This document shows positions 34,690 through 64,000 of a stretch of 64,000 bases of DNA, one piece after another (within the stretch, counting starts at the first letter, position 1; every line of letters starts with the position of its first letter). The stretch is taken from NCBI GenBank assembly GCA_022843465.1, contig JALHNO010000005.1, positions 24,691-88,690 on the forward strand, read 5' to 3'. Source of the stretch: Pseudomonadota bacterium (GTDB lineage: Bacteria; Pseudomonadota; Gammaproteobacteria; Xanthomonadales; Ahniellaceae). The notes under the pieces were generated by a model. The model searched no databases, was not told the DNA's origin, and was given only the letters and a program-made list of their open reading frames with translations. The position numbers and the translations under genes were made by a program.

Positions 34690-34753
34690 GCAAAGTTTTG
34701 TGCAGACGTCGCTTGAATGTCGCAATACACCTCGAACATTCGCCATCTCCTGT

Positions 34754-34793
34754 AGCAGGATATCTCTGCGAACCCGTGATGCATCATCCTGCT
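34754..34793 (+). other. Hairpin just upstream of the ribosome binding site of paralog C
   Basis: AGCAGGAT (34754-34761) and ATCCTGCT (34786-34793) form a perfect 8-bp inverted repeat with a 24-base loop. The right arm ends three bases before AAGGAG (34796-34801), the ribosome binding site of paralog C. It could adjust expression of C and D separately from A and B. Confidence 0.42.
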
Positions 34794-34806
34794 GCAAGGA
34801 GTTCCA

Positions 34807-39813: not shown

Positions 39814-40054
39814 GGTTTATCCAGATCAGGGTGACAAAGGGCGGCCATTGTACGGGCAAGCGTGCCGAGCCGGCACTCGATCGTGATGCGCAGCAGCGGT
39901 CGCTGCCGCCTACTGAGCCGGATACACAAGCGCTGAGCGCGAATAGCCGGTTGTAATTATTGATGAAATCGACACGATTATTTGCGCTTATTAACGCTTT
40001 GGTCGGATCTTGGGCGTACCATTGCTCAGGAATCAATGCTTTGGAGCGGAGGTC

Positions 40055-43000: not shown

Positions 43001-44167
43001 GTTGCGGCAGGCGTCGGCTGGAACGCCTTCCTGCCGGGTGTGAAATCCAATGACGCCGTCTACGTGGCGAGCCCAGCCGCGATGGCGCGGCCGCGCGTCA
43101 CCACGGAACCTGTAATTGTCGATATCCAGAGCGGCGCCGCCAACTATCTGGTGATCAGCCACGCCCAGTTCGCTGCCGGCGTCGCGCCCCTGCTGCAACA
43201 TCGCCAGGGACAGGGGCTGAGCACTGCCGTCGTCGATGTCGACCAGATTTACGCCCAGTTTGGCAATGGCGAGCCCGATCCAGCCGCCATCCAGGCCTAT
43301 GTCGCGGCAGTCAAGGAACGCCGCGGCGTGCGCTATCTGCTGATTGTTGGCGGCGATACCTACGATTATCACGATTATCTCGGCATCCATTCGGTGAGTT
43401 TCGTGCCGACGATCTACCGTGCTACCGGTGCCGTGGTCCGCTATGCACCGGTCGATGCGGCCTATGCCGATGTCGATCTCGATGGCGTGCCGGATCTCGC
43501 CATCGGGCGTCTGCCGGTGCGTACCGAGGCGGAACTGGCCACCGCGATCAGCAAGATCATCCAGGCCGAAACGCCGCGGTCTGTACACGCCGGTCTGCTG
43601 GTATCGGGCGCCAGTGATCCGGGCAACAGCTTCAGTGGCATGAACGAGGATTTTGCGGCCGAGTTGCCGGGGTCCTGGTCGCTGGAGCGTGCCGATGTCG
43701 ACGCCATCGGTGCCGCTGCCGCACGTGCTGCTCTGTTCAATGGCTGGAGCGCCGGGCCCGCGCTGATCAGTTATGTCGGTCATTCGGCGCCCGGGCAGTG
43801 GACCTACGATCCGCTGCTGACCGCCGGTGACGTGGCCTCGCTGGCGTCCAGCCCAATGGTGCCGACGGTTGCACAATGGGGTTGCTGGAACACTTATTTC
43901 GTCTCGCCATCCGCCAACTCTCTGGGCCAGGCCCTGCTGCTGCAGGGCGCCCACGGCGCAGCGGCGATCTTCGGGCCGGCCGCGCTGACCGATATCTCCA
44001 ACCATCGCGGGCTGGCGCCCGGTGTCTTTGCCGGCATGGTGCCTGGCGCGCGGATCGGCGATGTGATTCTGCAGGCGCGGATCAATCTGGCCGGGCAGGG
44101 CATGCGTTCCACAGAGTCGATGCAAGGCAGCAATCTGCTTGGCGATCCGGCGATGATCCTGCCCTGA
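40055..44167 (+). CDS. Secreted C25 (gingipain-type) peptidase 1 with Gly-rich domain
   Basis: A 1370-residue exported protein. A signal peptide (ending about AQAQ) leads into an N-terminal beta-rich domain. A very Gly-rich stretch (about 225-525, with runs such as GGGGGANGGSGGIGGNAW) follows, then a region shared with two other genes in this window (LWVSERGFQRVHHEDLLAEGVDLAGV, AYNFASPTDDPWYADRLLAF). The C-terminal peptidase begins YLVISHAQFAAGVAPLLQHRQGQGLSTAVVDVDQIYAQFG and has GGDTYDYHDYLG. The catalytic pair is His1243 (YVGHSAPGQW) and Cys1277 (AQWGCWNTYF), 34 apart as in gingipains. The protein ends at LLGDPAMILP, with no T9SS C-terminal domain. A cysteine endopeptidase acting outside the cell is inferred. 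GGAGG precedes ATG 40055. Confidence 0.85.
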   Translation: MNPVRFRPLRGRAIGLSLGIAAAACVLPAQAQTVAADCATPGNDGNNSSISGIVNSYYPGTASVAAGGRCISVGARTGAATPIAAGDLLLVIQMQHATINTGDNSSYGDNVAGTPGGVTNFQTAGAYEYVAALGAVGASGGVGCGANQIPIKGRGTSAGLINAYSTAARSGTTGRRTFQVVRVPQYNHAGLSGTVNAAYWDGSTGGIAVIDVVGRLDFGGQTLNATGRGFRGGGGRALGGDGDAGDTDYRRNVTENAHGAKGEGIAGTTRYLYNQETGALIDFAADEGYNNGGAARGAPGNAGGGGTDSNAVANDENSGGGGGANGGSGGIGGNAWRSNEATGGHGGGAFAPGGTARDRIVLGGGGGAGARNNSANRESSGGAGGGIIIVQTGEFRGSGSIVANGAQGPEPANDGGGGGGAGGTVVLRDHDGLTASNATAITISVVGAAGSSAWPNQAPGGSPGARHGPGGGGGGGRILLGPSLATGTTTFSGGAAGLTTTANDTYGAGPGLIGSSESYTGTPPGILPGFQCAPLPVTLAHVDLRADGSQVRAVWATASERNSVAFRWFADADGKLAVQDDPTPSPRGNAAEPTGYQTVLRPAAGGRYWLAEYDHRGNREMHGPYEVGKPVGRSPLGQMIEWDSINAQKRSAAKLRGGNAQSARLWVSERGFQRVHHEDLLAEGVDLAGVSIASIAVLRGSVPIPRRIVSDSAQFGAGSHVDFFGEPRDSLYGAESVYRLAIDPAAVREIARDEREPGPSRPAWAWNNADYAPQNAYNFASPTDDPWYADRLLAFAGTPAGKDISLALSAVAQVQQVSHLQVDLIGATNWAGLDPDHHVQLRLGGQAVTEVIADGLTPFELQYEMLLAPSTQTLDLRVEATGATGYSFDVVNIERARLRYPRLAQAEAGRWYSDAVRHDGVQNDPSENPPLVTSGELLADGFEDPMTPNRIDSLRVRDLASAEVVAYARTGSTWRYLRNARTVAAGVGWNAFLPGVKSNDAVYVASPAAMARPRVTTEPVIVDIQSGAANYLVISHAQFAAGVAPLLQHRQGQGLSTAVVDVDQIYAQFGNGEPDPAAIQAYVAAVKERRGVRYLLIVGGDTYDYHDYLGIHSVSFVPTIYRATGAVVRYAPVDAAYADVDLDGVPDLAIGRLPVRTEAELATAISKIIQAETPRSVHAGLLVSGASDPGNSFSGMNEDFAAELPGSWSLERADVDAIGAAAARAALFNGWSAGPALISYVGHSAPGQWTYDPLLTAGDVASLASSPMVPTVAQWGCWNTYFVSPSANSLGQALLLQGAHGAAAIFGPAALTDISNHRGLAPGVFAGMVPGARIGDVILQARINLAGQGMRSTESMQGSNLLGDPAMILP

Positions 44168-47740: not shown

Positions 47741-48018
47741 CGTCGTGCTCCGTTACGTAAGCGTCGATTATCGGGGCAGGGGTCTGCAATCGGCAACGTG
47801 TGTGCATTGTTCACCGGAATTGGCCAGCTTTGGCCCGATTCTTGTTATTATTCAGGGGAGTGCCTGTTGGACAGCCCAACGGTACGCTGGGAACAGGGAG
47901 TCGGGCCATTGCGAAGACGGAGAAACCGTCTCGCCTGGCCAGCCTCTGTGCTCAGTCCCTGGGCGCTGAGTCCTCGCGCTCCCTGTCATCTAGCCGCTGC
48001 TGCGGCTCGGGAGTTGTT

Positions 48019-51000
48019 ATGCGCCATCATGATTCGAAGCCACTGTCTGGTTCCGCACTGCGTGGGCCGGCTTTCATTCTGGGGATGCTGTGCTGGCTGT
48101 TTGCTGCGAGTGCTGCGGCTCAGATCGTCTACTCCTACGAGTCCACAACGACGGGAACGATTCCGGAGAGCGCGGCTTGCCCGACGCCTCTTGAACGTAC
48201 TTTTGTCGTTACCGACTCATTCACCGTGGCAGCTATATCGCTCGGCATAGATTTGACGCACACAGATCGCGGACAGGTGCGAATCCAGATCGTAGCGCCC
48301 AATCTGGCGGTTTTCACCGCTACCCCGGGCAGCGGAGGAGATGCCAATGACGACTACCGCATGACGCTATCGTCCAATGGCGAAGGGGTTCTGAATGACG
48401 GGGACGCTGACCCCGCAGCCAATTCCCGATATCGCCGTCTGGTCAACGTCCCGGGTATCAATTTCTACACCGGAAATTCGGCCGGAACCTGGCGGGTTCG
48501 CGTCTGCGATCTGGATACGGCGGGGGCTGCGGGAACCTTGCTGCGCACCCAACTGATCCTGCGCGATGATGTGGGCACGGCGGTCTCGGCCTGCGGTACC
48601 AATCTGACGTATGACTGGGCCAGCAACGGCGCCCTGAACCCCTTCGTCAGTTTTTCTGTGGGCGGGGTGACACTCACCCAGACGTCAACCAGCGGCGAAG
48701 CCCCGGCGGATGTCGCGGCGGACCCGAGCTTCATCACGCGTACGACGACCAATGGCAACCACCCCGGATACTACTCCCTGCACTTTGACACCAGCGGAGA
48801 GAATGAGCTGTCGGCGGAAAATGTGATCTTTACCTTTTCCGAGGCGGCCACATGGCTGACCTTTTCGCTTCTGGACGTGGATCGCCAGGACAATGGTGGC
48901 GGCGCCGGCTGGGAGGACTACATCCGCGTCGATGGTTTCGACGACGCGGGGGTCCAGGTTCCCAAGCAGATGACGCTGGCGAATGCGCAACTGCAGTTCG
49001 CCGGCGACTGGGTTGAGGCTGACGCCACGGTCGCACAGACCAGTACCAACGGCAATGTGGTGGTCCGATTCGTTCGGCCGGTCCGCTCACTGCGCGTCGA
49101 ATATGCGGCTGGTGATGATTTCGCCGGTGGACAAGTCTTCCAGGTGATCGGCCTTTCTGACTTCCAGTTCTGTGCTTTCGACTACGGTGACGCTCCTGAC
49201 AGCTACAACACCACTATTGCCGCCGGAACAGTGACCCGCAACACCATGGGGGCGCGCGATCTGTTCATGGGCACCGCCCCGGATGGTGAATCGGATGGAC
49301 AGGCGTCAGTCAATGCAGATGGTGACGGCAATGACGAGGACGGAGTGACATTTCCGACGCTGATCGCCGCACCGCCCGCAGTACAGCGCTGGCAGTGTGG
49401 CGCGTATTTGACTTCAGTGGGCGAATATTGCGTTTCGGTGAACACGACCAACAATATCGGCGCCACCGCGCAACTGGTGGGCTGGATCGATTTCAATGGC
49501 GACGGTGATTTCAACGATGCCAATGAACGCTCATTGCCGGAGCTCGCCTTTGGCACCGGCGGCGCCGTCGACAACACCTTTGCAACCGGCAATGTGCCCG
49601 CCGGCACGGGTACCCGCGTCTTGCGCTGGACTGGCGTCAACAATGCCACCAGCGCGCAGACCTACCTGCGCGTGCGGCTTACTACCGATGCCAGCTTCTT
49701 TACCGCCAATCCGCAACCGAACGGCCAGCTCACCGGCGGTGAGACCGAGGACCACCGCATTCCGGCGAGCACGCTGGCGGTGAGCCTGAACTGGGTCGAG
49801 TCCTATGTCGACGCCGGGCAATTGCACATCGCGTTCTCTACGGCGACGGAATCCGGCAATGTCGGCTTCAGCATTCACGAGAAGCGTGGCGATGCCTACG
49901 AGCGGATCACCAGCCAACTGTTGCCCAGCCGCAGCGTCGATACCGCCGATGTATCCCAGTACAAGCTGCAACTCCCGCAAGTGCCAGCGAGCGGCGAGTT
50001 CTTTATAGGCGATCACGACACCGAGGGCCGCACGACGCTGCGTGGGCCGTTCACGGTCGGCGAGACCTACGGCTACAAGGTGCAGGCGCGCACGGTCGAC
50101 TGGGCTGCTGTGCGGGGCAGTGTCAGTGCAGATCGCGAGCGGCGCGCGGCCGCCGGAGCGATTCAAGGTGCCAAGCTCTGGGTTTCTGCCGCTGGCTTCC
50201 ATCGCGTGACCGCGGCGCAGTTGCTGGCTCAGGGCGTGGATCTGGCAGGAACGCCAGTGGACCAGATCGCCATCAGTTTCCGCGGCGCTGGCGTTCCACG
50301 GCGCGTACATCCCGCGACTGGCGTGTTCGGTTCGGGCTCCTACATCGATTTCTACGCGACGGAAGCTTATTCCCTGTACACCGCCGACCTGCCCTTCCTG
50401 CTCAAGACCGACGGTGTTGGGGTCGTCCGCATTCATGGCGATGCGCGCACCGTGCAGGACGTTCGTCCGGCCTGGTACTGGGCGACTGTGACCTATACGC
50501 CCGAGCTGATCTACAATTTTGCCTCGCCGACGGCCGATCCCTGGCATGCGGCGCGCATGCTGGCTTTTCCCGGAGCGCCCTCTGCGGTGGACCTGAGCCT
50601 GCAACCGACGGCAGCGGCGAGCACAGAGTTTGCTCCTGTTCTGCGCGCCGATCTGATTGGCGTCACCAATTGGTCTGGGGCTGGACAGGATCACCACGCC
50701 CGGATGCGCTTCGGCGGCAACGAGGTTGCCGAGGCCAGTTTCGATGGCGTGCGCGCGCATTCAGTCACCGCCTTGCTGCCGCAATTGACCGGTGGCAGTA
50801 CGCAGGTTTCGATCGAGACCACGGGCAACAACGGATTCAGCTACGACCTGATCTATCTCGATAAGGTGGAGCTGCGCTATCCGCGCCTGCCGGTGGCGGA
50901 TGCCGATGGTCGCCTGCTCATGCGTGACATCAATGCCGACATGGGCAGCGGTGCCGAGATCGGCGCTGATGATGACGGCACGATCGGATTCCTCTCTGGA

Positions 51001-52269
51001 TTTGAAGGCGACGATCTACGCCCTGGCTTCGTTGCTTCCGGACTCCCGGCAGGGCCTGCGGTGGCCTATGCCGGTCATGGCGAGGACTGGACGGCGCTGA
51101 CATCGGTCAGCGCCAGCGGCGGGTCGGCCGCGGTCCCCTTCATTCCCGGCGCTGATGCATACTGGGTGTCGAGTACCGGTGCTCTGCGAACGGCACGCGT
51201 AGAAGCCTTGCCGGCCGATGAAGACATCGTCTCGGGAAATGTCGACTATCTGATCATCAGCCACAGTCTGTTCCTCGATGATCTGGCTGACATCGTGGCG
51301 CTCCAGCAGTCGCGCGGGCTGACCACGCGTGTGGTCGATGTGGCACAGATCTACCAGCAGTTCGGTGATGGCCTTCCCGAGGCCGACGCTATTTCGGCTT
51401 ATCTGCGCGCGGTGGCCACGCCGATGGGCGTGGACTATGTTCTGCTGGTTGGCGCTGACACCTATGACTACAAGAATTATCTCGGTACCGGGTCGGTGAG
51501 TCTGGTACCGACGGTGTATAGCGCCGTCGGCGATATCGCCTACACGCCAACCGATGCCGCCTACGCGGACCTCGATGGTGATGATGTCCCGGAGTTTGCG
51601 ATTGGCCGGCTGCCGGTTCGCAGCATCGCTGAGCTTGCGGCGATACGCACGAAAATCCTCGCTGTGCAGGGCAGCAACCCGCAGCGCTCGGTGATTCTGG
51701 TCGCGGGAGGCAGCGATGGCGAGCTGGACTTCAGTGCCATAAGCGACGGCTTTGCCGGTTTGTTGCCCGGCATCTGGCAGAGCAGCGAGGCCTATGTCGA
51801 TGATATCGGTGTCCAGGGAGCCAATCAGGCGCTGCTTGATGAGCTCAATGGTGGCGTGCAGATGGTCAGCTATGTGGGCCACTCGGCGCCGATCCAGTGG
51901 AGCAGCGCCAATCAGACCGTACTGACTTCGAACCAGGTGCTCGGTCTGAGCGGTGGCGTGACCGATCTGGTGGTGCAATGGGGCTGCTGGAACAGCTATT
52001 TCGTATCGCCGAATGCGGACACGATGGCACATGCCTTCCTGCTCACGCCTGGCCGCGGTGCGGCAGCGGTGATTGGCGTTGCTGGACTCACCGGTGCCGA
52101 GGCGCACTCGGCGCTCGGCACGGCACTTTACCCACACCTGGCGCCCGGAACCCGAATCGGCGATGCGCTGCGCGCAGCGAAGTCATCGCTGGCGGGTGCT
52201 GCCGGTATCCACCGCGACATCCTGGTCTCCAGCACCTTGCTTGGAGATCCCGCCATGCCGATCCGCTGA
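48019..52269 (+). CDS. Secreted C25 (gingipain-type) peptidase 2 with P-domain and GEVED domain
   Basis: A 1416-residue exported protein. The signal peptide ends near residue 34 (ASAAAQ). Next is a proprotein-convertase P-type domain (about 45-165: ISLGIDLTHTDRGQVRIQIVAPN, TGNSAGTWRVRVCDLDTAGAAGTLLRTQLIL). Then a jelly-roll-like stretch, then a GEVED domain (about 390-585: FDYGDAPDSYNT, DEDGVTFP, VGWIDFNGDGDFNDANE, GGETEDHRIP). The shared region (KLWVSAAGFHRVTAAQLLAQGVDLAGT) leads to the peptidase, with GADTYDYKNYLG, His1288 (YVGHSAPIQW) and Cys1323 (VQWGCWNSYF). It ends TLLGDPAMPIR without a sorting domain. GGGAG lies before ATG 48019. Its N-terminal modules are unlike those of peptidases 1 and 3. 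Confidence 0.85.
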   Translation: MRHHDSKPLSGSALRGPAFILGMLCWLFAASAAAQIVYSYESTTTGTIPESAACPTPLERTFVVTDSFTVAAISLGIDLTHTDRGQVRIQIVAPNLAVFTATPGSGGDANDDYRMTLSSNGEGVLNDGDADPAANSRYRRLVNVPGINFYTGNSAGTWRVRVCDLDTAGAAGTLLRTQLILRDDVGTAVSACGTNLTYDWASNGALNPFVSFSVGGVTLTQTSTSGEAPADVAADPSFITRTTTNGNHPGYYSLHFDTSGENELSAENVIFTFSEAATWLTFSLLDVDRQDNGGGAGWEDYIRVDGFDDAGVQVPKQMTLANAQLQFAGDWVEADATVAQTSTNGNVVVRFVRPVRSLRVEYAAGDDFAGGQVFQVIGLSDFQFCAFDYGDAPDSYNTTIAAGTVTRNTMGARDLFMGTAPDGESDGQASVNADGDGNDEDGVTFPTLIAAPPAVQRWQCGAYLTSVGEYCVSVNTTNNIGATAQLVGWIDFNGDGDFNDANERSLPELAFGTGGAVDNTFATGNVPAGTGTRVLRWTGVNNATSAQTYLRVRLTTDASFFTANPQPNGQLTGGETEDHRIPASTLAVSLNWVESYVDAGQLHIAFSTATESGNVGFSIHEKRGDAYERITSQLLPSRSVDTADVSQYKLQLPQVPASGEFFIGDHDTEGRTTLRGPFTVGETYGYKVQARTVDWAAVRGSVSADRERRAAAGAIQGAKLWVSAAGFHRVTAAQLLAQGVDLAGTPVDQIAISFRGAGVPRRVHPATGVFGSGSYIDFYATEAYSLYTADLPFLLKTDGVGVVRIHGDARTVQDVRPAWYWATVTYTPELIYNFASPTADPWHAARMLAFPGAPSAVDLSLQPTAAASTEFAPVLRADLIGVTNWSGAGQDHHARMRFGGNEVAEASFDGVRAHSVTALLPQLTGGSTQVSIETTGNNGFSYDLIYLDKVELRYPRLPVADADGRLLMRDINADMGSGAEIGADDDGTIGFLSGFEGDDLRPGFVASGLPAGPAVAYAGHGEDWTALTSVSASGGSAAVPFIPGADAYWVSSTGALRTARVEALPADEDIVSGNVDYLIISHSLFLDDLADIVALQQSRGLTTRVVDVAQIYQQFGDGLPEADAISAYLRAVATPMGVDYVLLVGADTYDYKNYLGTGSVSLVPTVYSAVGDIAYTPTDAAYADLDGDDVPEFAIGRLPVRSIAELAAIRTKILAVQGSNPQRSVILVAGGSDGELDFSAISDGFAGLLPGIWQSSEAYVDDIGVQGANQALLDELNGGVQMVSYVGHSAPIQWSSANQTVLTSNQVLGLSGGVTDLVVQWGCWNSYFVSPNADTMAHAFLLTPGRGAAAVIGVAGLTGAEAHSALGTALYPHLAPGTRIGDALRAAKSSLAGAAGIHRDILVSSTLLGDPAMPIR

Positions 52270-52914: not shown

Positions 52915-55900
52915 GTGACCGCACTACAGCACACTAAATTCCCGACGGCCGGACAGCCGGCCCGGCTGCGCCTTCCGAGCGGTCCAATACGCCTCTCCGA
53001 TCGAGTTTTGCAGACTTTTGTCGGCCGCCGGAAGACGCATCAACTGGCAAGTCTGGCGCTGTTGCTGCTCGGCACTCTGTTTGCCGGCACCGCTTCGGCC
53101 GCCCTCACGGTGCAGCCGATCACCTGGAACATCATCGGTCTGGACAGCAACAATGTCACGGTCGGGCCGAATCGCTTCCCTGGTGGGGCGCGCGTCTGTA
53201 CCGACGCTACACCCAGCAATGGCAGCGTGACGGTTACCTGGAACTGGACTTCGGCCGACCCCTTTATTGATCTGCGGGTGGGCTCGCAAAATCCTGTGAT
53301 CCTGGCGCCACTGGCTGCGAACAGCTGCGCCGACGCTTACTTTGAAGTCGAGATTGTGCGCAATAGCGCGGCCTACAACCACACCCGGCGCTATCGCATC
53401 GATGCCGACGACGCCGACCCGGGCGTGAGTTCTTCGCCGATTCCACGCGAACTGCTGGTGGAGCGCTTGATTTCACAGAGCCGCAATTCGATCAGCGACA
53501 TCCAGTATGGAACCACCATTCCCGGACTGACTTCGGTAGCGGCGGGCGGGGCGTTGAATCTGGTCGTCGGCAACACCTACTTCATTCGCCTGATCGGCGG
53601 CACCGCGACGCAGGGCTATGAACAATTGGAGACGTTCATCGGCTTCAAGAACACAGTATTCAGAGTGCTCGATGTCGACTCGACGTTTCCTGCGGATTCA
53701 TCGGCGACGGTGTCGAGCCCCACCGACACCCTGTACCTCGATGGTTGCGTCTGGGAAAACGATATCGACAGTCCCAACTACCTTTCCTGTCTTTCCACCG
53801 GCAAGGCTGGCGGCTCGCCGGTGGCAATTACCTATCAGGTGCAGATCATCTCGGGCGGCGGCACCACAGAAACCCTGAATTCACTGTTCCATGATTTTTC
53901 CGGCAGCAGCTATCACTACAACGCCGACTACTCGTCGAGCGCGCGCTTCGCCAATATTCTCGATCCGACCACATCGACGATCAGCAAGAGCTTTACCCCG
54001 AGCACCATTCCGGTCAATGGCACCTCAACCTTGTCCTTTGTCATCGGAAATCCAAATGCCTTTTCAGTCAGCGGCTACAGCCTCATCGACAATTTGCCCG
54101 CAGGCGTAGTCGTCGCAGCACCCGTGACGACGAGCACCAGCGGTTGTGGAACCGCCCCGACATTTGCGCCTACGGCTGGCGCGACCAGCTTGTCGTTTTC
54201 CAACGGCACGGTCGGTGCAGGCAGCAGTTGTACGTTTACGGTGCAGGTCACCAGTGCGGCAACCGGCACCTACAACAACACCACGGAATTCCTGCTGATC
54301 GATGGCATCAGCACGACACGCACCGCGTCGGCCTCGCTGGTGGTCAACAACATGCCGGCCCCGCCTGCCTGTACGAATGGACTGGAGCTGGCCACCTGGA
54401 GGATGGAGCCGGCAGCGGGAACTTCGACGCCGCCGCTGTTCACTTTCAAGAGCAGCCTCGCCAGTTCTGCCACGGCAAGCTACTCCGGCACGGGAACTCA
54501 AATCATCTCGACGGTAGCGCGCACCGGGGCGGCGGTAAATTATTGGCAGGTTACTGGCGGTTGGCCGCCCAACGCCACGGGATTCCCCAATCCCGCTGCG
54601 CCTTACTTCGAGTTTGTACTCGATACCACAAATTTTACAGCTGCCCGGATTGCCTTCGATTACAAAGTCGATGACAACTGGGCAAACGCCGCAAACAATC
54701 ATCTCTACGTCTACTCAAGCGCCAATGGCGGAGCGTTTACCAATCTCAGTGACACTACTGGTTTCACCAAGAACGATCCCTTCGTGAATCGTGCCGACAA
54801 TGCGGCGACCACGGGCTCAAGCACCACGACCTTCCGGATCAATGTGGTCGGCCAGCAGCAAAATACAGCGCAGTTCCTTCTCGACAACATTGTCATCACC
54901 GGCTGCGCCGTACCGCGCCAGCCGCCGCTGAGCAAGGCTTTTGTACCCAGCACGATCGCGGTGAACGGGACCTCGACGCTGACCTTTACCCTGGGCAACG
55001 AGAACAACATTGCACTCACTGGTGCCGGGTTTACGGATGTCCTGCCGACAGGGATACAAGTCGCCGCAACACCGGCGGTTTCTTCGACCTGTGGCACCTG
55101 GAGCCCAGCCCCGGTGGCTGGTGCGACCACCCTCACGTTCAGCGGTGGCACGATTCCGGCACGCGTTGGAACCACGAATGGATCCTGCACGCTTTCGGTC
55201 AATGTGACTGCCACTTCGGCAGGATCACGTACCAATGTCAGTGGTCCGATCTCGACCACGCAAACCGGCACCAATTCCGGTCCAACCGGGTTCGGCACGG
55301 CGTCGCTGACCGCAATTTCGCCGCCGGTGATTGCCAAGCAGTTTTCACCCTCCACGGTACTGACCGGCGGTGTCAGCACCCTTGCCTTCACGATCACCAA
55401 TCCCAACCCGAGCAATGCGATCGCGGGCGTGGCCTTCTCCGACACATTCCCGGTTGCACCGGGCGCGATGGTCGTCGCGGCAACGCCGGCGCCGAACAAT
55501 ACCTGCAGCCCGGCGGGTACGTGGACGACGACCCCAGGCGCGGCTTCGGTATCGTTGACGGGCGCAGGCGTACCCGCTGGTGGCAGTTGTACGGTGCGTG
55601 TCAACGTCCTGGCGCCTTCGCCAGCGGTGGGCACCTATAACAACACCAGCGGCAATGTCTCGCATCTCGTCAACGGCGTCAGCGTCAACGGCAATACCGC
55701 GAGCGCATCCCTGCTGGTGAACCCGGCATCGCCGGGCATTTCCCTGCTCAAGCAGGTCAGCACGAACGCGTCAGGTCCCTGGTCCTCGTACCTGGCGGTA
55801 CCGCTGGGCACTCCGCTTTTCTACCAGTTCACCGTGGAAAATACCGGTGATGTCGCCTTGGTCATGCCCGCCTCTCCGGGGTATGTCACCGATGTGAGTG

Positions 55901-58900
55901 TTCCGGGACCCAATGTCGACACCACCAGTTGCTTTGCTGGTTGGACCAGTCCGCTGCCGGTGGCTGTATCGGCCAATGACAATCACATCGATGCCTGTGT
56001 GGTCGGTCCAATCGCCGCTGTGGCCTCGGGTGTAGTCAATACCGGTACCGCCAGCAGTCCGACCGGGCCCTCGTCCGATACCTCGGTTGCACGCTATGGG
56101 ATCACCGGGATTTCTCTGCAGAAGACTGCTGACGTCAGCATTTATGGGTACGTCGGGCAGGTCATCTCCTATAGCTTTCTGGTCACCAATACGGGCAACG
56201 CCGTACTCACCGGCCCGGTCGTGATCAGCGACAATCTAACCAGCAACGAGTCCTGCCCGGCGCTGAGCACGATCGGAGACCTGGACAATTTCTTTGATCC
56301 TGGCGAGTCGATTGTCTGCAGTGCGACCTATACGATCGTGCAGGCCGATGCCGACTCGGGTTCTGTGACCAACGTTGCGACCGCGTCGGCGGGCGGCGCT
56401 ACATCGGCGCCTGACGATGTCACCATCACCTATTCGCCGCCGGTGCTCAATGTCAGCAAGTCGGTGAATCCCAATCCGGTGTCGATCGGCGAGCAGGCGA
56501 CGTACACCATCACCATAACCAATAGCGGGCTCGTCGACACGTCTGCGGACATCATCATTGCTGATACCTTGCCGGAGTTCATCACTTATGTCAGTGCTTC
56601 GGGAACAGACTGGACCTGCAACGGACAGATTCCCCTGAGCTGCACATACTCGGGCCGACTTCTCGCAAATGGGGGTTCGACCTCGCTTGCTCTGCTGGTC
56701 GATGTCGGTGCTGGAACCGTCAACGGAAACAACACCGCCCGTGCCAGCGGTGGCGGTGATCCCTTCTGTCCAGCGGCGCCCGGGGCGGCCTTGGCGCGCT
56801 GCAGCGGGACGGTGATTGTCGGCACTGTACCGGTCATTTTTTCGGACATCTCGGTGCAGATCGAGAACACCGCCCTGGTGGTGCGCTTCGGTACTGCCTC
56901 CGAGGATGGAGCACTCGGGTTTCGTGTGCTTGCCGCGCGCAGTGACAGTGCCGCGCGACAGCCGCTGGAGGCGACGCTGAGCCTGGCGCAGTCGTCCGTG
57001 CTGGCTCCGCAGCGTTACGAAGTGCGCGGCAACTACAGCGGCCAGACCCGGGTGTGGATCGAGGAAGTGTCGATTCTCGGCGAGAGCACGCTGCATGGTC
57101 CGTTTGATGTCGGTACTCGGGTGGGAGAGGCCCAGAGCGATGCTGTGGCGACCGACTGGTCCTCCATCCGCTCGGAGCAGGTTGCGCTGCGCCAGGCGCG
57201 CGGCGTCGCCTTGCAGGCGCGGTTGCTGCGTGCCGGTACGCCTGCCGAGGCAGAGTTGCGTATCAGTGAGTCCGGTTGGGTAAGGCTGCGTTACGAGGAC
57301 TTGCTGGCCCAGGGCGTCGATTGGACTGGCGTACCCGCGGCGCAGATTGAGCTCTTGCGTGGCACCAGGTCACTGCCCCTGCTGATTGAGGGCGGGGCGG
57401 TTTTTGGGCCCGGCGGGAGTTTGGCGTTCCTGGGGGAATCGATCACTGGCAGCCTGTACACACGCACTGCGGTCTATCGACTGCGCGTTGCGTCGGCTGG
57501 CACTCCGATGCCCACGGTCTTTGCCGGTTTGGGTGCCTTGGTCGCCAAGACGGGGGTATCTGATCGGTTCGAACATGCGCCAAATCGGCACTACAATGCC
57601 GCGGCAGACAGTACTGATCCCTGGTTCGCGCACCGCCTTGTGCGCAATGGCGTGCCGATGGCCTCGGTAAGCGAGACGTTCGAACTGCCGGAGAAGTCAG
57701 CGACCTCGGGCGATGAGCGGATAGAAGTCGAGCTCTTTGGCGGTCTGAACTATCCGGCCGAGCCCGACCACAGCGTGAGATTGCGGCTCAACGGCGTCTA
57801 CATCGCCAGTGCGCGTTTTGATGGCATTACCCGCACACTGGTACAGGCAAACCTCAGCGAAGGAATCCTGGTCAGCGGCAGCAACACACTTACGATGGAG
57901 CTCTGGGATGACACCGGGCTGCCAGCAGATGTGGTTTTTCTTGAAGCAATTCGGATCGACTACACGCGCAAGCTGACGGCGGTGAATGAGCGCATCGCAT
58001 TCGCGATTCCGCCGGACAGCGGTTCGGTCAGAGTTGGAGCGGACCGCATCTTCGTTGACAATTTTGACAACGAAGGCAGCATGGCCTGCGCCCTTGCTTC
58101 CGAGTGCACCGGCTATCGGATCAGTGGACTCAGTCGCGGGGACGGCGTCGTGCTGCGCCAGCGAAACGGAGGAACGGTCCAGCTGGCAGCGAAAGCCGTC
58201 GCTACCAGCGACGGCTACGACCTGCAGTTCGCCAGCACGACCGTGTCTGGGGATCGCTTCTGGGTGGAACCCGCAGCAGGCCGCGTGAATCCCCACATCA
58301 CATTGGCGGCACCGGCGGTTGATCCCCTGGCGGGTGGGCCGGCGAACTACCTGATCGTTTCCCACCCAAGTTTCCTCAGTGGTCTTGCGCCGCTGGTGGC
58401 CGCGCGCGAAGCGGAAGGCTTTGCGGTTCGCGTAGTCGATCTGGATGATGTCTACGCGTTCTACAACGACGGTGTGGTCGACCCGGTAGCCATCCAACTG
58501 GCCTTGGCCGATGCCTACGCCCGCCTGGGAACGCGCTATGTCCTGCTGGTCGGCGGCGACACCCTCGACTACTTCAACTATGGTGGCGCGAATTCGCTCA
58601 GCTTCGTGCCCACTCCCTATCGGGTGACCAGCCAGTTCATCCGTTTCGGCGCGGCCGATGGCAGCTATGCTGACATCGACAGCGACGGACTCGCCGATCT
58701 GGCGATCGGCCGATTCCCGGTGCGTACATTGTCGGAGCTGGATGTCCTGATCTCCAAGACCTTGAGCTATCCACTTGCTGATCATCGTGGCAAGGCCTTG
58801 CTGGTCAGCGATCGTGATCAGGGCGAGATGGTCTATAGCGCCCAGTTGGCGCCGATCGGCAACTATCTCGGCAACAGCTGGAACGTCAGTGGTCTGACCC

Positions 58901-59385
58901 TCCAGAATTACCCTGCCGGGGGAGCGTCCCAGGCGCGTGCCGATCTGGTAACGGCCGTGGACAGCGGTCAATCCCTGCTGGCCTTCCTTGGGCACGGGTC
59001 GCCGGGCAACTGGACCTTCGAGGGATTGCTCACTGCGGGTCACGTCTACGCTGGCGTATTCAGCAATGCGACCAAGCCGACTCTGGTATGGAATCTGGGC
59101 TGCTACGGAGCCTATTTTGTCGATCCGTACTACAACACCATTGCCCACGGCATGCTGCTGCAAGGGAATGGCGGCGCTGCCGCGGTGCTGGGTGCCAGTG
59201 GCTTGACCGATGTCAGCAGTGATGTCGCCTGGGTCAATACGCTCGGTCCTGTGCTGGGCGCGGTGCGGCTGGGCGATGCGCTGCGTATTTCACAACGATT
59301 GTTGCACCAGAGCAGCCCGGAGTTTCGCGATATCAGTACCGGCGGCACCTTGCTCGGCGATCCGGCGTTGCGGCTGAACCAGTAG
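52915..59385 (+). CDS. Giant secreted C25 (gingipain-type) peptidase 3 with DUF11-type repeats
   Basis: A 2156-residue exported protein. The N-terminus is long before the hydrophobic segment (ASLALLLLGTLFAGTASAA, about 45-63). A large array of adhesin-like repeats follows: three with openings SKSFTPSTIPVNGTSTLSF, SKAFVPSTIAVNGTSTLTF and AKQFSPSTVLTGGVSTLAF, then DUF11-like units (ISLLKQVS, ISLQKTADVS, LNVSKSVNPNPVSIGEQATYTITITN). The region shared with peptidases 1 and 2 starts near 1310. The peptidase has GGDTLDYFNYGG, His2027 (LGHGSPGNW) and Cys2063 (WNLGCYGAYF), and ends LLGDPALRLNQ. A GTG at 52915 behind AGAGGT is the best start. The lasso-peptide cluster begins 123 bp downstream. Confidence 0.84.
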   Translation: MTALQHTKFPTAGQPARLRLPSGPIRLSDRVLQTFVGRRKTHQLASLALLLLGTLFAGTASAALTVQPITWNIIGLDSNNVTVGPNRFPGGARVCTDATPSNGSVTVTWNWTSADPFIDLRVGSQNPVILAPLAANSCADAYFEVEIVRNSAAYNHTRRYRIDADDADPGVSSSPIPRELLVERLISQSRNSISDIQYGTTIPGLTSVAAGGALNLVVGNTYFIRLIGGTATQGYEQLETFIGFKNTVFRVLDVDSTFPADSSATVSSPTDTLYLDGCVWENDIDSPNYLSCLSTGKAGGSPVAITYQVQIISGGGTTETLNSLFHDFSGSSYHYNADYSSSARFANILDPTTSTISKSFTPSTIPVNGTSTLSFVIGNPNAFSVSGYSLIDNLPAGVVVAAPVTTSTSGCGTAPTFAPTAGATSLSFSNGTVGAGSSCTFTVQVTSAATGTYNNTTEFLLIDGISTTRTASASLVVNNMPAPPACTNGLELATWRMEPAAGTSTPPLFTFKSSLASSATASYSGTGTQIISTVARTGAAVNYWQVTGGWPPNATGFPNPAAPYFEFVLDTTNFTAARIAFDYKVDDNWANAANNHLYVYSSANGGAFTNLSDTTGFTKNDPFVNRADNAATTGSSTTTFRINVVGQQQNTAQFLLDNIVITGCAVPRQPPLSKAFVPSTIAVNGTSTLTFTLGNENNIALTGAGFTDVLPTGIQVAATPAVSSTCGTWSPAPVAGATTLTFSGGTIPARVGTTNGSCTLSVNVTATSAGSRTNVSGPISTTQTGTNSGPTGFGTASLTAISPPVIAKQFSPSTVLTGGVSTLAFTITNPNPSNAIAGVAFSDTFPVAPGAMVVAATPAPNNTCSPAGTWTTTPGAASVSLTGAGVPAGGSCTVRVNVLAPSPAVGTYNNTSGNVSHLVNGVSVNGNTASASLLVNPASPGISLLKQVSTNASGPWSSYLAVPLGTPLFYQFTVENTGDVALVMPASPGYVTDVSVPGPNVDTTSCFAGWTSPLPVAVSANDNHIDACVVGPIAAVASGVVNTGTASSPTGPSSDTSVARYGITGISLQKTADVSIYGYVGQVISYSFLVTNTGNAVLTGPVVISDNLTSNESCPALSTIGDLDNFFDPGESIVCSATYTIVQADADSGSVTNVATASAGGATSAPDDVTITYSPPVLNVSKSVNPNPVSIGEQATYTITITNSGLVDTSADIIIADTLPEFITYVSASGTDWTCNGQIPLSCTYSGRLLANGGSTSLALLVDVGAGTVNGNNTARASGGGDPFCPAAPGAALARCSGTVIVGTVPVIFSDISVQIENTALVVRFGTASEDGALGFRVLAARSDSAARQPLEATLSLAQSSVLAPQRYEVRGNYSGQTRVWIEEVSILGESTLHGPFDVGTRVGEAQSDAVATDWSSIRSEQVALRQARGVALQARLLRAGTPAEAELRISESGWVRLRYEDLLAQGVDWTGVPAAQIELLRGTRSLPLLIEGGAVFGPGGSLAFLGESITGSLYTRTAVYRLRVASAGTPMPTVFAGLGALVAKTGVSDRFEHAPNRHYNAAADSTDPWFAHRLVRNGVPMASVSETFELPEKSATSGDERIEVELFGGLNYPAEPDHSVRLRLNGVYIASARFDGITRTLVQANLSEGILVSGSNTLTMELWDDTGLPADVVFLEAIRIDYTRKLTAVNERIAFAIPPDSGSVRVGADRIFVDNFDNEGSMACALASECTGYRISGLSRGDGVVLRQRNGGTVQLAAKAVATSDGYDLQFASTTVSGDRFWVEPAAGRVNPHITLAAPAVDPLAGGPANYLIVSHPSFLSGLAPLVAAREAEGFAVRVVDLDDVYAFYNDGVVDPVAIQLALADAYARLGTRYVLLVGGDTLDYFNYGGANSLSFVPTPYRVTSQFIRFGAADGSYADIDSDGLADLAIGRFPVRTLSELDVLISKTLSYPLADHRGKALLVSDRDQGEMVYSAQLAPIGNYLGNSWNVSGLTLQNYPAGGASQARADLVTAVDSGQSLLAFLGHGSPGNWTFEGLLTAGHVYAGVFSNATKPTLVWNLGCYGAYFVDPYYNTIAHGMLLQGNGGAAAVLGASGLTDVSSDVAWVNTLGPVLGAVRLGDALRISQRLLHQSSPEFRDISTGGTLLGDPALRLNQ

Positions 59386-59508: not shown

Positions 59509-61239
59509 ATGGGTGCATTCTTTCTCACTGTGGATTGGAGTGGTGCGGCGGCTGATACCGCCGCCATTGCACGAGCGCAGTCGGCGTTACGTGGTTTTGC
59601 GCCGTTCGGGTTTGAGTCAATCAGTGCCGCGGGCGTCCTGCTGGTTGTTGCGCGTGATCGCGATCAGCCGGGCCTTGAGCGGTTCGGTGATGATCTGGTT
59701 GTGCTCGACGGCGCGCTCAGCGCGGCCTGCCGTCGTGCCTTGCAGCAAGCCTTGGGCCTTCCGCGCCAGTCAGATGCGCGAATTGTGCTGGCTGCTTTCG
59801 ACCGCTGGGGCATCGACGCGGCCAGCCGTCTCGATGGACGATTCGCACTGGTTGTGGTTCAACGGACCCACGATCAGGTATGGATCCTGCGTGATGGTCT
59901 CGGCCAGCGTGGGCTGCATGTTCGCGAAGCGGGCGATCGCTTGCATGTGGCAACCAGAGCCAGCGTCTTGCTGAGGGCGGCGGACCTGCCGATGCTGGAG
60001 GACCCGCTGTCCGTGGCTGCCTATTTTGCGCTGCGGGCACCGCCAACGGGCGCTGGTTACTGGTTGGGGGTGCGGGCAGTTGCTGCCGGCGAGTGCCTGG
60101 CGTGGACTGGGCGTCGGCTGCATTCAAGCAAGCAGAACTTCGATGTCCCACTGGCACCTGCACGATTCTCTTCGGACGCCGATGCGGTCGATGCCTGGGA
60201 CTCGGTCCTGCGCGGCGCATGTGCCCGCGCGCTGGCGGAGTCGGTACAACCAGGGCTACTCCTGTCCGGAGGTATCGACTCGAGTGCGATCGCCGCAAGC
60301 TCGGTGTCCGCGCGGCCGAATCTGGTCGCGTGCTACTGGAGATTGAGCGCATTTCCGACGGCTGATGAATGCGCCTATTCGAGCGCGACAGCGGCATGGC
60401 TGGGGCTGCGCACACTATCCATCGATGGTGAGCAGCACGCACCCCTGGCGCGGCTCGATTGCTGGCGGGTTGAAGATGAGTCGCCTCACTCGAATCCTTA
60501 CAGATGGCTGCATCATCATCTTTTTGAGCAAGCGGCTGGGCACGGCATCGACACCCTGCTATCGGGAAACTTCGGCGATCATCTGTATCCGGATCGGCTT
60601 CCCGCGTGGTCGTGGTCGGGTACGTTCGGGCAACGGCCGCGACAACTGCTGGATCGCTTTCCCACGCTGATGCGCGGGCTGCGCCGGTTGTTGGGGCGTT
60701 ATCCCGCGCTGCCGCGTTGGCTGGCGGAAACCTGGCGACAACCGCTGCAGAGCGCCTATATCGGCGCCGGCCATCCTTTGTTGGCCGTCGAAGCGGAGCT
60801 CGATGCCGAGCTGGGCCGTCGTCACAGCTCGAGTTTTGGCCTTGATCTGCGATTTCCCTACCGCGATGTCGAGGTCATCCGATTCATGGCCTCGCTGCCA
60901 GCGCATTTCAGTGTGCGCGACGGTGCTCGGAAATGGATCACCCGCGAGGCAATGCGTGATCGATTGCCCGAGCGCGTTCGCACCCGGGCAAAGGCTGGCA
61001 GTCTGGAGCCGTTTTTTCGCAAGGCGATTCTTGGAGACGCCAACGCGCTGGTGCAACGATTGCTTCGTGATCCGGGGGCAAAATGGCCGCGTTACGTCAT
61101 GCCGGAACAACTATGGGCGGCCGTCGCGCAGCCCGCCACCGAGGCGGAATTGCTGCTGATCTGGCTAGCCGTCAGTTATGAACTTTGGTGGCGTGCGCAC
61201 GCCGGGCTTGGCCCTGCCGTGCTAGCATCCGAGCCCTGA
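59509..61239 (+). CDS. Lasso peptide cyclase (asparagine synthetase B-like, lasso C)
   Basis: A 576-residue cytoplasmic protein built like asparagine synthetase B. The N-terminal half (about 1-215) is glutaminase-like but begins MGAFFLTVDW, without the catalytic Cys2. The C-terminal half is the AMP-forming domain, with the PP-loop LLSGGIDSSAIAASS (SGGIDS at 253-258), LSGNFGDHLYPDRL, and SSFGLDLRFPYRDVEVIRFMASLPAHFSVRDGARKWITREAMRDRLPERVRTRAKAG. In lasso clusters this enzyme activates an Asp or Glu side chain as an AMP ester so that the new N-terminus of the core attacks it and closes the ring. It is the first gene of the cluster and lies 26 bp ahead of the precursor gene. Confidence 0.85.
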   Translation: MGAFFLTVDWSGAAADTAAIARAQSALRGFAPFGFESISAAGVLLVVARDRDQPGLERFGDDLVVLDGALSAACRRALQQALGLPRQSDARIVLAAFDRWGIDAASRLDGRFALVVVQRTHDQVWILRDGLGQRGLHVREAGDRLHVATRASVLLRAADLPMLEDPLSVAAYFALRAPPTGAGYWLGVRAVAAGECLAWTGRRLHSSKQNFDVPLAPARFSSDADAVDAWDSVLRGACARALAESVQPGLLLSGGIDSSAIAASSVSARPNLVACYWRLSAFPTADECAYSSATAAWLGLRTLSIDGEQHAPLARLDCWRVEDESPHSNPYRWLHHHLFEQAAGHGIDTLLSGNFGDHLYPDRLPAWSWSGTFGQRPRQLLDRFPTLMRGLRRLLGRYPALPRWLAETWRQPLQSAYIGAGHPLLAVEAELDAELGRRHSSSFGLDLRFPYRDVEVIRFMASLPAHFSVRDGARKWITREAMRDRLPERVRTRAKAGSLEPFFRKAILGDANALVQRLLRDPGAKWPRYVMPEQLWAAVAQPATEAELLLIWLAVSYELWWRAHAGLGPAVLASEP

Positions 61240-61265
61240 GCAGCAACCAATTCAGAGACTGGCTA

Positions 61266-61442
61266 GTGAATGAGCAGGTGAAAAAACCGGGGGCAGCCGA
61301 GGATGGGACAGCAACTCGCCTCCCTTACACGGCACCATTGCTTTCGGAACTGGGCGAGTTGCGGGATATCACGTTGGGCGCTTCCCCTGGAATCGGTGAT
61401 TCCGGTGGCACCCAGACACAGAGATGTCCCGGCTGCCCCTGA
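61266..61442 (+). CDS. Lasso peptide precursor (lasso A), predicted
   Basis: A 58-residue peptide starting with GTG at 61266. The leader contains LPYTAPLLSELGELRDITLG, an exact fit to the lasso leader motif YxxPxLx3Gx5T, with Thr at position -2 of the predicted cut. The core is then 21 residues: it opens GASPGIGD, continues SGGTQTQ and ends RCPGCP. Gly1 and the only acidic residue, Asp8, predict an eight-residue macrolactam ring. Cys17 and Cys20 in the tail form a CPGC motif, so a tail disulfide or a metal site is possible. The gene sits between the cyclase and kinase genes; the kinase ATG lies inside its last codons. Only a weak ribosome binding site is seen, and starts upstream within the cyclase gene are conceivable. 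Confidence 0.8.
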   Translation: MNEQVKKPGAAEDGTATRLPYTAPLLSELGELRDITLGASPGIGDSGGTQTQRCPGCP

Positions 61443-62389
61443 GCGCAGAAACTGCGCTGGCTCCGGCTGCGCGTTTCAATTCCATTCGAATTCATGCCGA
61501 AATCCCGGGCTTGCTGGGATCTGCGATCCCGGTGGCGCGCATAGTCCGCACCGACATTCTGTTTCCTTCGGGCGTCGTGGTTCCGCTTCCGGGTTGCAAC
61601 TTCATGCCTGTGCCTGCACCGGGTTCAGCGGCTGAGATTTTCGGGACTGCAACAGGCTCGGCGGCGGCCGATTTTGTCGGCAGTGGTTGGCTTGGCCAGA
61701 CACTGCATGCTTTTGAGTGCTGGCATGATGCGCTTGGGCAGCGCGTACTTTTCGACGACGGAGCGGCGTTCTGGGTCAGTGCGGACGGCGATCACATTGC
61801 TGTCAATGCCACAGCGAACGATTGTCCGCACCGCGACGAACTGCTGCTCGGCCCGGCCCTGATGCTCGCGCTGGCGGCCCGTGGTGTCTTCGGGTTGCAT
61901 GCCTCCTCCATTCTGGGTTCAGAGGGCGCTGTCACCCTGCTTGGGCCATCGGGATCGGGCAAGTCAAGTCTGGCTCGTTACGCGGTTTCGCAAGGCGCAC
62001 TCCGGCTCAGTGATGATGTGACCCCGCTGGCGCGTCTGGATGTCGGCATGCGTGTGCTCCCACGTTTTCCGCAACTCAAACTGGCGCCGATCCTGATGGT
62101 TGATGACCTCGAGCTGCCCCTGGCCGCCCTGGTCTGGGTGGAGATTGGTGCGGGCCCGCTGGCGCTTACGCGGATGCGCGATGTCGAAGCTTCGCGCTGC
62201 CTGTTGCGTGATACGGTTGCTGCGCGGTTGTTCGCGCCCAGGCTGCTCTCGCGACATCTTGATTTCTGTGCCGACCTGGCGATACGCGCTCCGGCCTGGC
62301 ACCTCAACATGCCGCGTGTCGAGCCTGCGCAACAGACCCGCATATTTGATCAGGCTTATCGCCTGCTGCGCGGATTGGGGTTGCCGTGA
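61424..62389 (+). CDS. HPr kinase-like protein of the lasso cluster (putative tailoring kinase)
   Basis: A 321-residue protein with a C-terminal HPr kinase/phosphorylase-like domain: GLHASSILGSEGAVTLLGPSGSGKSSLARYAV with the P-loop at about 174-182, then GALRLSDDVTPLA with the acidic pair. The N-terminal half is unassigned and family-specific. Related kinases in Firmicute lasso clusters phosphorylate the C-terminal Ser of the precursor core. The core here ends in Pro, so any phosphorylation must hit Ser3, Ser9, Thr12 or Thr14, or another target. Its ATG overlaps the precursor stop by 19 bp and its stop overlaps the B2 gene (GTGA), so the cluster is translated as a unit. Confidence 0.8.
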   Translation: MSRLPLSAETALAPAARFNSIRIHAEIPGLLGSAIPVARIVRTDILFPSGVVVPLPGCNFMPVPAPGSAAEIFGTATGSAAADFVGSGWLGQTLHAFECWHDALGQRVLFDDGAAFWVSADGDHIAVNATANDCPHRDELLLGPALMLALAARGVFGLHASSILGSEGAVTLLGPSGSGKSSLARYAVSQGALRLSDDVTPLARLDVGMRVLPRFPQLKLAPILMVDDLELPLAALVWVEIGAGPLALTRMRDVEASRCLLRDTVAARLFAPRLLSRHLDFCADLAIRAPAWHLNMPRVEPAQQTRIFDQAYRLLRGLGLP

Positions 62390-62778
62390 CTTCGGTGCCG
62401 CGCATCTGGTGGTCACTGTGCGGCTGGCGCTGGTGGCGCAATGCCGGTGCCGAGGTGGCGCGTCGTGTCGCACCGGTTGCCAGCGCGGACGATGCTGAAT
62501 CGGTTCGCTTGCTGAGCCGATACCTGCTCCGGATCGAGCGAACTGCGCGCTGGGTGCCAGGCAGTCGCTGTCTTGATCGCGCCCTGGCCTTGATCGAATG
62601 CGCAGCCGCCGAAGGGGTGACGGCGCAATTGTGCGTCGGTGTCCGGCGGGTAGATCAGCAACTCAGGGCGCATGCCTGGGTGCAGGCCGGCGAGATCATC
62701 ATCGATCCCGACCCGCAGGCCGTGTCACGATTCGTCCGACTGCAGGCGCACCAGCCGGGTCTGGAGTTCGACCGATGA
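62386..62778 (+). CDS. Lasso leader peptidase (lasso B2, transglutaminase-like)
   Basis: A 130-residue protein matching the separate protease half of lasso B. The catalytic triad of the transglutaminase-like fold is visible: Cys62 in GSRCLDRALALIECAAAEG, His96 in LRAHAWVQAGEIIIDP and Asp107 in the same block. The protein cuts the leader from the precursor after the recognition protein has bound it. GTG at 62386 overlaps the kinase stop, and its own stop overlaps the B1 start by four bases (ATGA). Length is normal for free-standing B2. Confidence 0.85.
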   Translation: MTSVPRIWWSLCGWRWWRNAGAEVARRVAPVASADDAESVRLLSRYLLRIERTARWVPGSRCLDRALALIECAAAEGVTAQLCVGVRRVDQQLRAHAWVQAGEIIIDPDPQAVSRFVRLQAHQPGLEFDR

Positions 62779-63065
62779 ATGCACAGTCGCCACGTTACCG
62801 ACTCGCGCCCGGTGTTCTGGCGCAAACCGCGCTCGACGAGGCGGTGTTGCTCGACGCGCGTGCCGGGGCCTACTTCGGCGCCAATGCCAGCGCCACCCTG
62901 ATCCTGCGCGAATTGCTTGCCGGCTCTGATGTGGACGTGATCGTCCAGCGGGTCCACCAGAAGTTCGAGCAGGACGCGGCAACCATTCGTGCCGACGTGA
63001 TCGCCTGTCTCGACGATTGGCTGCTTCGCGGCCTGATCGTCCCGACCGCGTCGGATACGCGCTGA
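62775..63065 (+). CDS. PqqD-like RiPP recognition element protein (lasso B1)
   Basis: A 96-residue winged-helix protein of the PqqD family, the leader-binding element in RiPP pathways. Features: YRLAPGVLAQTALDEAVLLDARAGAYFGANASATLILRELLAG, then DVDVIVQRVHQKFEQDAATIRADVIACLDDWLLRGLI. It is expected to hold the YxxPxL part of the leader and present the precursor to B2 and the cyclase. It is the last gene of the cluster. An inverted repeat follows within 40 bp. Confidence 0.87.
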   Translation: MNAQSPRYRLAPGVLAQTALDEAVLLDARAGAYFGANASATLILRELLAGSDVDVIVQRVHQKFEQDAATIRADVIACLDDWLLRGLIVPTASDTR

Positions 63066-63132: not shown

Positions 63133-63206
63133 CTTCGCCGCGAATGCCCGCAGATGTGCATTGCCTGGGTGCGCGGAAGGGTTACCCTCGCAGCCCGGAG
63201 ACCGCC

Positions 63207-64000
63207 ATGCACCAGACCGATTTCGAAAACCGCGTACGCTTCATCGCCAAGCTGGCGCGCCGACTGCATCAGTACGGCACCACGGCTGGTCGCCTTGAAA
63301 AGGCGATCGACAATGTCTCAGGTCGGCTGGGGCTCGGCTGCAACAGTCTGGCGACTCCGACATCGGTGATCATGTCGTTCGCGGTGCTCGACGAAGGCCC
63401 GGGCGCGCTGCCGCGTTCGACCCAGGTGTTGCGCGTCGATCCCGGTGAAGTGAATCTGCGCCGTCTGGTCGAGGTGGATGCGATTGCCGAGCGTGTGTTC
63501 AGCGGTGAACTGGATATCGAATCGGGTTTCCGCGCTCTTGAGGAACTGCAGAGCGGACTGAGCCGACGTGCCACGGTCATGCGCGTGATCAGTTTTGGCA
63601 TCTCCTCCGCCGCAGTTGCGACCTTGCTGAAGGGCGTGCTTGCCGATGTCATCGTTGCCGGTAGCCTCGGCCTGCTGATCGGGATCATGGCCAGTGTCGT
63701 CGAACGCCGGCCCGCACTGGCTCCATCCTTCGAGGCACTGGCGGCGTTCGTCGCGATGTTTGCGGTTTCCCTGATTGCCGCGTTGCTGCAGCCGCTGAAC
63801 ACCATCAGCGTGATGATTGCTGCCGTGATCGTGCTGATGCCGGGTCTGATGCTGACCACCGCGATCACTGAACTGTCGACCCAGCATCTGGTCGCCGGCT
63901 CAGTTCGCTTCATGGGCGCCACCGCAACCTTGCTGAAACTGACCTTTGGCACCGTCGCCGGCATGCAGGTGGCCAATCTGTTCAAGCTCAAGGCGATGCC
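63207..64000 (+). CDS. ThrE-like threonine/serine exporter family protein (cut by the window end)
   Basis: The frame runs from ATG 63207 to the window end without a stop, about 264 codons. The N-terminal soluble domain reads FENRVRFIAKLARRLHQYGTTAGRLEKAIDNVSGRLGLG and DEGPGALPRSTQVLRVDPGEVNLRRLVEVDAIAERVFSGE, typical of the ThrE/DUF1212 family. Membrane helices begin near residue 135 and include VIVAGSLGLLIGIMASVV, FEALAAFVAMFAVSLIAALL and ISVMIAAVIVLMPGLML. The family exports small amino acids. GGAG lies ahead of the start. It is separated from the lasso cluster by the inverted repeat, so export of the lasso peptide by this protein is not implied. Confidence 0.85.
   Translation, partial: MHQTDFENRVRFIAKLARRLHQYGTTAGRLEKAIDNVSGRLGLGCNSLATPTSVIMSFAVLDEGPGALPRSTQVLRVDPGEVNLRRLVEVDAIAERVFSGELDIESGFRALEELQSGLSRRATVMRVISFGISSAAVATLLKGVLADVIVAGSLGLLIGIMASVVERRPALAPSFEALAAFVAMFAVSLIAALLQPLNTISVMIAAVIVLMPGLMLTTAITELSTQHLVAGSVRFMGATATLLKLTFGTVAGMQVANLFKLKAM

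Follow-up and report, generated by a model that had tools for sequence, protein, structure and literature searches.

A lasso-peptide cluster and three C25 peptidase genes

The window, i.e. the whole stretch of 64,000 nucleotides analysed here, contains a lasso-peptide cluster of the order C-A-K-B2-B1 at positions 59509-63065, with genes for peptidases of family C25 upstream of it and an exporter gene downstream. The features are:

40010..44167, + strand: third C25 peptidase; 1385 aa, PF01364 207.5 bits, His/Cys present
47800..52269, + strand: second C25 peptidase; 1489 aa, PF01364 203.8 bits, His/Cys present
52915..59385, + strand: secreted PorU/gingipain-like C25 peptidase; 2156 aa, PF01364 174.6 bits, His/Cys present
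59509..61239, + strand: lasso cyclase C; 576 aa, asparagine-synthetase-like, LLSGGIDSS loop intact, no Cys2 nucleophile
61266..61442, + strand: lasso precursor A; GTG start, 37-aa leader, 21-aa core GASPGIGDSGGTQTQRCPGCP, NF033521 above cut-off
61377..61400, + strand: predicted macrolactam ring Gly1-Asp8 (GASPGIGD), with Ser3 as the predicted phosphosite
61424..62389, + strand: HprK/PEPCK-fold kinase K; H159, K180, D197, D198
62386..62778, + strand: leader peptidase B2; Cys62/His96, NF033537, PF13471
62775..63065, + strand: PqqD-type leader recognition protein B1; PF05402 51.9 bits (cut-off 23.4)
63144..63998, + strand: ThrE-type exporter; PF06738 162.5 bits, extends past the window end

The initial annotation of this DNA had described the five lasso genes as running in one direction, and all of them were found on the + strand at the positions it gave. 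The last four genes indeed overlap, by 19 nt between A and K and by 4 nt both between K and B2 and between B2 and B1; a gap of 26 nt separates only C from A. The SGGIDS loop of the cyclase is intact, as had been claimed. The protein passes PF00733 (118.7 bits), which corresponds to the asparagine-synthetase-like cyclase of lasso clusters, and is 41% and 36% identical to two cyclases adjoining precursors of the same family. Since its score with the lasso-cyclase model NF033535 (109.9) is far under the curated cut-off of 525, its function as a lasso cyclase is deduced from the gene context and these homologues.

The transglutaminase-fold leader peptidase and the PqqD-type recognition element typical of lasso clusters are both present, as separate proteins. 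B2 scored 54.9 bits with NF033537 (cut-off 33) and was also above the curated cut-off of PF13471. The triad Cys62/His96/Asp107 that had been proposed for it survives in part: Cys62 and His96 are invariant in 19 out of 19 homologues, whereas position 107 varies in their alignment (N in 8, D in 4, G in 4, S in 2), so that Asp107 lacks the support of conservation.

The leader, YTAPLLSELGELRDIT, was said to fit the pattern YxxPxLx3Gx5T exactly, and it does. The six frames of the window contain this one exact match and no other, compared to 0.017 expected per base-shuffled window, and the lasso leader model NF033521 gave 20.0 bits (cut-off 19). The precursor thus combines the leader pattern YxxPxL...G.....T with a core of the lasso type, which starts with Gly, Ala, Ser or Cys and has Asp or Glu at position 7-9. 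The split B protein, the gene order and the Gly1-Asp8 core were upheld as well. Judged from its sequence, the locus is confirmed as a genuine lasso-peptide cluster of a generally known kind, and a threaded, dehydrated lasso peptide is its predicted product.

The cluster extends beyond the five genes: the C25 peptidase genes directly upstream, which had been overlooked, belong to the linked set. The gene for the 2156-aa protein stops 124 bp 5' of C; its product has a signal-like stretch at the N-terminus and the C25 domain at the C-terminus, and the closest solved chain by sequence is PorU (6za2, E 8e-5). The genome has three PF01364 matches in total, all immediately upstream of the lasso cluster. 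The three proteins resemble PorU and the gingipains in having a C25 domain with the catalytic His and Cys, which places them in this peptidase family, and in N-terminal similarity to PorU-type proteins; they differ from them in having other N-terminal regions (DUF7933, DUF7507, GEVED) and in that the C25 domain forms the extreme C-terminus. In the aligned columns, the catalytic His and Cys are kept in 61 out of 61 C25 domains.

On the other side of the cluster, the ThrE-type gene may encode the missing exporter or merely be a conserved neighbour; such a gene is also located 3' of the lasso cluster in L024 and L025, from two genera of the window's family. No RNA family was detected within the window with Rfam, and a promoter scan gave no signal exceeding chance. 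Searches found no cyclase relative on viral contigs and no kinase relative on plasmids. Upstream of the C25 genes, at 33088-38015, three tandem genes encode predicted secreted proteins of 525-544 aa that share an N-terminal motif like MHxxxDGxGQVLVFPYY.

The precursor belongs to a conserved family

The initial annotation regarded a lack of conservation of the precursor frame as an argument against its reading. More than 40 genomes share the frame, and it is kept in 44 distinct cores. A scan with the precursor alignment returned 45 loci in named genomes from Lysobacterales, Alcanivoracaceae, Arenicella, other Gammaproteobacteria, an Acidobacterium, Anaerolineae and one Deltaproteobacterium bin; within Lysobacterales, 42 of 398 genomes gave matches. 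All 44 distinct cores have Gly at position 1, Ser or Thr at position 3 (30 Ser, 14 Thr) and Asp or Glu at position 8 (22 each), followed by Ser9 in 41 and Gly10 in 42 of them. Position 16 is basic in 25 of the 44 cores, compared to 5.4 expected for shuffled tails, and none of 20000 shuffles reached 25. All family members in the alignment have Thr at leader position -2. L036, which comes from a different genus of the window's family, has the CPGCP tail of the window core as well. Five Arenicella-type cores (L076, L079, L080, L084 and L086) contain two Cys each, e.g. GPTFGTGESGCEGVFRVGPGGCPPP, and a disulfide is possible there.

The leader model NF033521 matched the window precursor and several of its relatives above the cut-off, although it covers just 20 leader positions; no dedicated model was found for the core family GxSxGxG[DE]SG. 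From these sequence features, the family appears to be a distinct, apparently unnamed and widespread one among lasso peptides.

The kinase and its predicted site of phosphorylation

The residues H159, K180, D197 and D198 of the kinase are invariant in an alignment of 21 sequences. Its AlphaFold model (mean pLDDT 77.9, with low confidence for the first 66 residues) has a predicted fold matching PEPCK and HPr kinase structures. According to a review, lasso kinases of the HprK type mostly phosphorylate a C-terminal Ser (PMC9266682). BsfK from Bradymonas, whose precursor has a Gly1-Asp8 ring and a 21-residue core, phosphorylates the ring residue Ser3 and also tolerates Thr at this position (S3T; PMC10368454). 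Because none of the 44 distinct cores has a C-terminal Ser, Ser/Thr3 is invariant and BsfK sets a precedent, we consider the ring residue at position 3 the likely, predicted phosphosite of K. A product consisting of the core minus one water, as expected in the initial annotation, is therefore probably incomplete: loss of water would be accompanied by a phosphate on Ser3 and perhaps a disulfide between Cys17 and Cys20. The predicted monoisotopic masses are 1926.831 for the lasso, 1924.816 with the disulfide, 2006.798 with the phosphate and 2004.782 with both.

The bsf cluster of Bradymonas sediminis (BsfA/BsfK/BsfB1/BsfB2) is similar to the window cluster in many respects. The two have in common the split B protein, the HprK-like kinase, the 21-aa core, the Gly1-Asp8 ring with its Ser3 and a C-terminal residue other than Ser (PMC10368454). 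The window thus has both Ser3 and the His-Lys-Asp-Asp kinase of the BsfK type and lacks the Ile/Val of this type at leader position -2, where bsf has Ile and the window Thr. Unlike the window, bsf has an ABC transporter. It also has a nucleotidyltransferase, bsfN, near K, which is resembled in Arenicella: an NTP_transf_5 nucleotidyltransferase is encoded between K and B1 in L199, the one spacer examined. By analogy with bsfN, a second tailoring step is possible in L199-like Arenicella genomes.

The paeninodin cluster of Paenibacillus dendritiformis (C-A-K-B1-B2-D; PMC5067487, PMC9266682) has the C-A-K order, the split B protein and the kinase motif of the window cluster. It differs in that B1 precedes B2, in having the ABC transporter gene D, which the window cluster lacks, and in that its C-terminal Ser is phosphorylated, whereas the window core ends in Pro.

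Phosphorylation of Ser9 instead of Ser3 seems improbable to us, though worth weighing, as the conservation of Ser9 almost equals that of Ser/Thr3, and position 3 cannot be singled out on this ground alone. Still, three cores of the family have no Ser9, whereas Ser/Thr3 occurs without exception, and an experimental precedent exists for position 3 only (PMC10368454). The presence or absence of K was dropped as a means to discriminate between the sites. C-A loci without K keep both Ser9 and Ser/Thr3, and this is uninformative because K sits elsewhere in nearly all of these genomes (14 of 15; in the remaining one, G007, only a weak K match was obtained). A paeninodin-type action of K on a C-terminal Ser is in our view practically excluded, in spite of the same gene neighbourhood and His-Lys-Asp-Asp set (PMC9266682): the terminal Ser is present in the control loci of the other type, L151 and L163, and absent here, so this site was rejected for the precursor as annotated.

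The displaced K is usually located near B1, and B2 and B1 are distant from C-A in G002, G004, G005, G006 and G007. In G005, four precursor matches (L042, L033, L055, L208), spread over several contigs and accompanied by C25 genes and cyclases, contrast with a single K-B1-B2 group. One module probably serves several loci there, and possibly acts in trans. In other Arenicella loci, the spacing between K and B1 is similar to that in L199. Phylum-wide kinase matches were mostly other HprK-like proteins, few of them with a recognisable lasso precursor. Three HprK-like kinase loci (L156, L162 and L165) encode short W..P... peptides that have a tail rich in Ser and Gly and lie adjacent to B1 and cyclase-like genes; they perhaps represent a different RiPP type.

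The lasso family is tied to C25 peptidases across genomes

Lysobacterales genomes with a strong precursor match have C25 in 31 out of 31 cases, compared to 44 out of 367 other genomes (Fisher 8e-26), and counting by genus gave 13 out of 13 compared to 14 out of 85 (Fisher 4e-9); the E-value limit for a strong match was set after the lists were seen, and the Fisher values overstate certainty, since related genomes are not independent and shared ancestry inflates them. Among the genomes with weak precursor matches, 7 of 11 had no C25. In a second sample, comprising genomes reached via the named loci and sharing about eight genomes with the first, C25 was present in 26 out of 27 genomes and in none of 14 controls. 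For G803, which carries the precursor, no C25 match was obtained.

The two are often neighbours. C25 gene and precursor are no more than 6 kb apart in at least eight genera of the order, as well as in Acidobacteria and Chloroflexi, and the frames of some of these neighbours touch or overlap. This distance holds for G000, G005 (three loci), G006, G008, G009, G036, G042, G067 (two), G126, G148 and G162. In G004 the C25 gene lies beside the cyclase, and C25 also adjoins lasso genes in L044, L056 (Anaerolineae), L081 (Acidobacteria), L068 and L070. In several genomes C25 is unlinked, e.g. in G002, where it is 132 kb away. No C25 was present near 18 other kinase loci inspected (L148-L165, most of them with lasso-type B/C genes). 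The lasso family is thus tied genomically to PorU/gingipain-like C25 peptidases.

A separate clade of lasso-linked C25 peptidases was considered and rejected: linked and unlinked proteins of lasso-bearing genomes are mixed in the tree (15 changes, shuffled mean 18), with no indication of a peptidase type peculiar to lasso loci. The small number of C25 domains taken from precursor-less genomes mostly form a separate deep clade.

In a non-exhaustive literature search we found no paper linking lasso peptides with C25 peptidases. One lasso paper contained the word "gingipain" in a reference entry only, "C25" was absent from a 2026 review of interlocked peptides, and the available part of the bsf report does not mention such a link (PMC10368454). 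The association is apparently new to the literature.

Proposed function

By analogy with known relatives, B1 would bind the leader through residues such as Tyr-17 and Pro-14, K would phosphorylate Ser3 of the core before leader removal, B2 would cleave after Leu-1, and C would join Gly1 to Asp8 around the tail, where Cys17 and Cys20 of CPGCP may form a disulfide. The exported product would then act on the PorU/gingipain-like C25 peptidases, or these on the product; in the form we prefer, it would serve specifically to regulate or inhibit the surface peptidases of the producing cell. We see about even chances that a phosphorylated lasso peptide is produced here and cooperates with the secreted C25 peptidases of the neighbouring genes, and the genomic tie points weakly to a direct action of the product on them.

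Gingipains prefer Arg/Lys, and the basic residue 16 present in 25 of the 44 cores fits this preference. Arg/Lys16, which often precedes Pro, would be appropriate for a peptide that imitates a substrate of an Arg/Lys-specific peptidase but resists cleavage; it could equally be a steric plug below the ring that locks the lasso. We tentatively propose, as a possibility rather than an expectation, that the ring-phosphorylated lasso peptides of this widespread family evolved as dedicated ligands (inhibitors or activity switches) of the producer's PorU/gingipain-like surface peptidases, and that, as in the case suggested by G005, several C-A-C25 loci can share one K-B1-B2 module in trans.

Few lasso peptides have a known physiological role, and a C25 partner, which is near-obligate in genomic terms, occurs across several phyla and is often encoded by the next gene, offers a specific target that can be tested. 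Lasso peptides that bind gingipain-type proteases could seed inhibitors of that protease family. If the predicted site is true, phosphorylation of ring Ser/Thr3, so far described for one Bradymonadales cluster, extends to a large family in Gammaproteobacteria.

Alternatively, the product might be an ordinary class II lasso peptide with an antimicrobial or signal function, C25 being a co-occurring bystander without direct contact. We consider this quite conceivable, albeit doubtful. Lasso peptides are often antimicrobial (PMC9266682, PMC8498205). On this reading, C25 would be a frequent enzyme of the predatory or polymer-degrading bacteria concerned, sharing an expression locus with the lasso genes. 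Many family members have it only far away, and the peptidases adjoining lasso genes form no clade of their own. Such a bystander role is at odds with the very tight spacing that recurs in unrelated phyla, the almost complete co-occurrence in both genome samples and the lack of nearby C25 at the 18 other kinase loci.

The regulator or inhibitor reading also has to be compared with one in which C25 is the processing or opening enzyme, trimming the tail at Arg16/Lys16 or, as a PorU-like sortase, attaching the peptide to the surface or releasing it. This is unlikely. A sortase, PorU, is the closest relative of known structure and core position 16 is frequently basic, yet in many cores Arg/Lys16 is followed by Pro or the core ends one residue on, so that cleavage there would be unlikely or pointless, and 19 of the 44 cores have a non-basic residue at this position.
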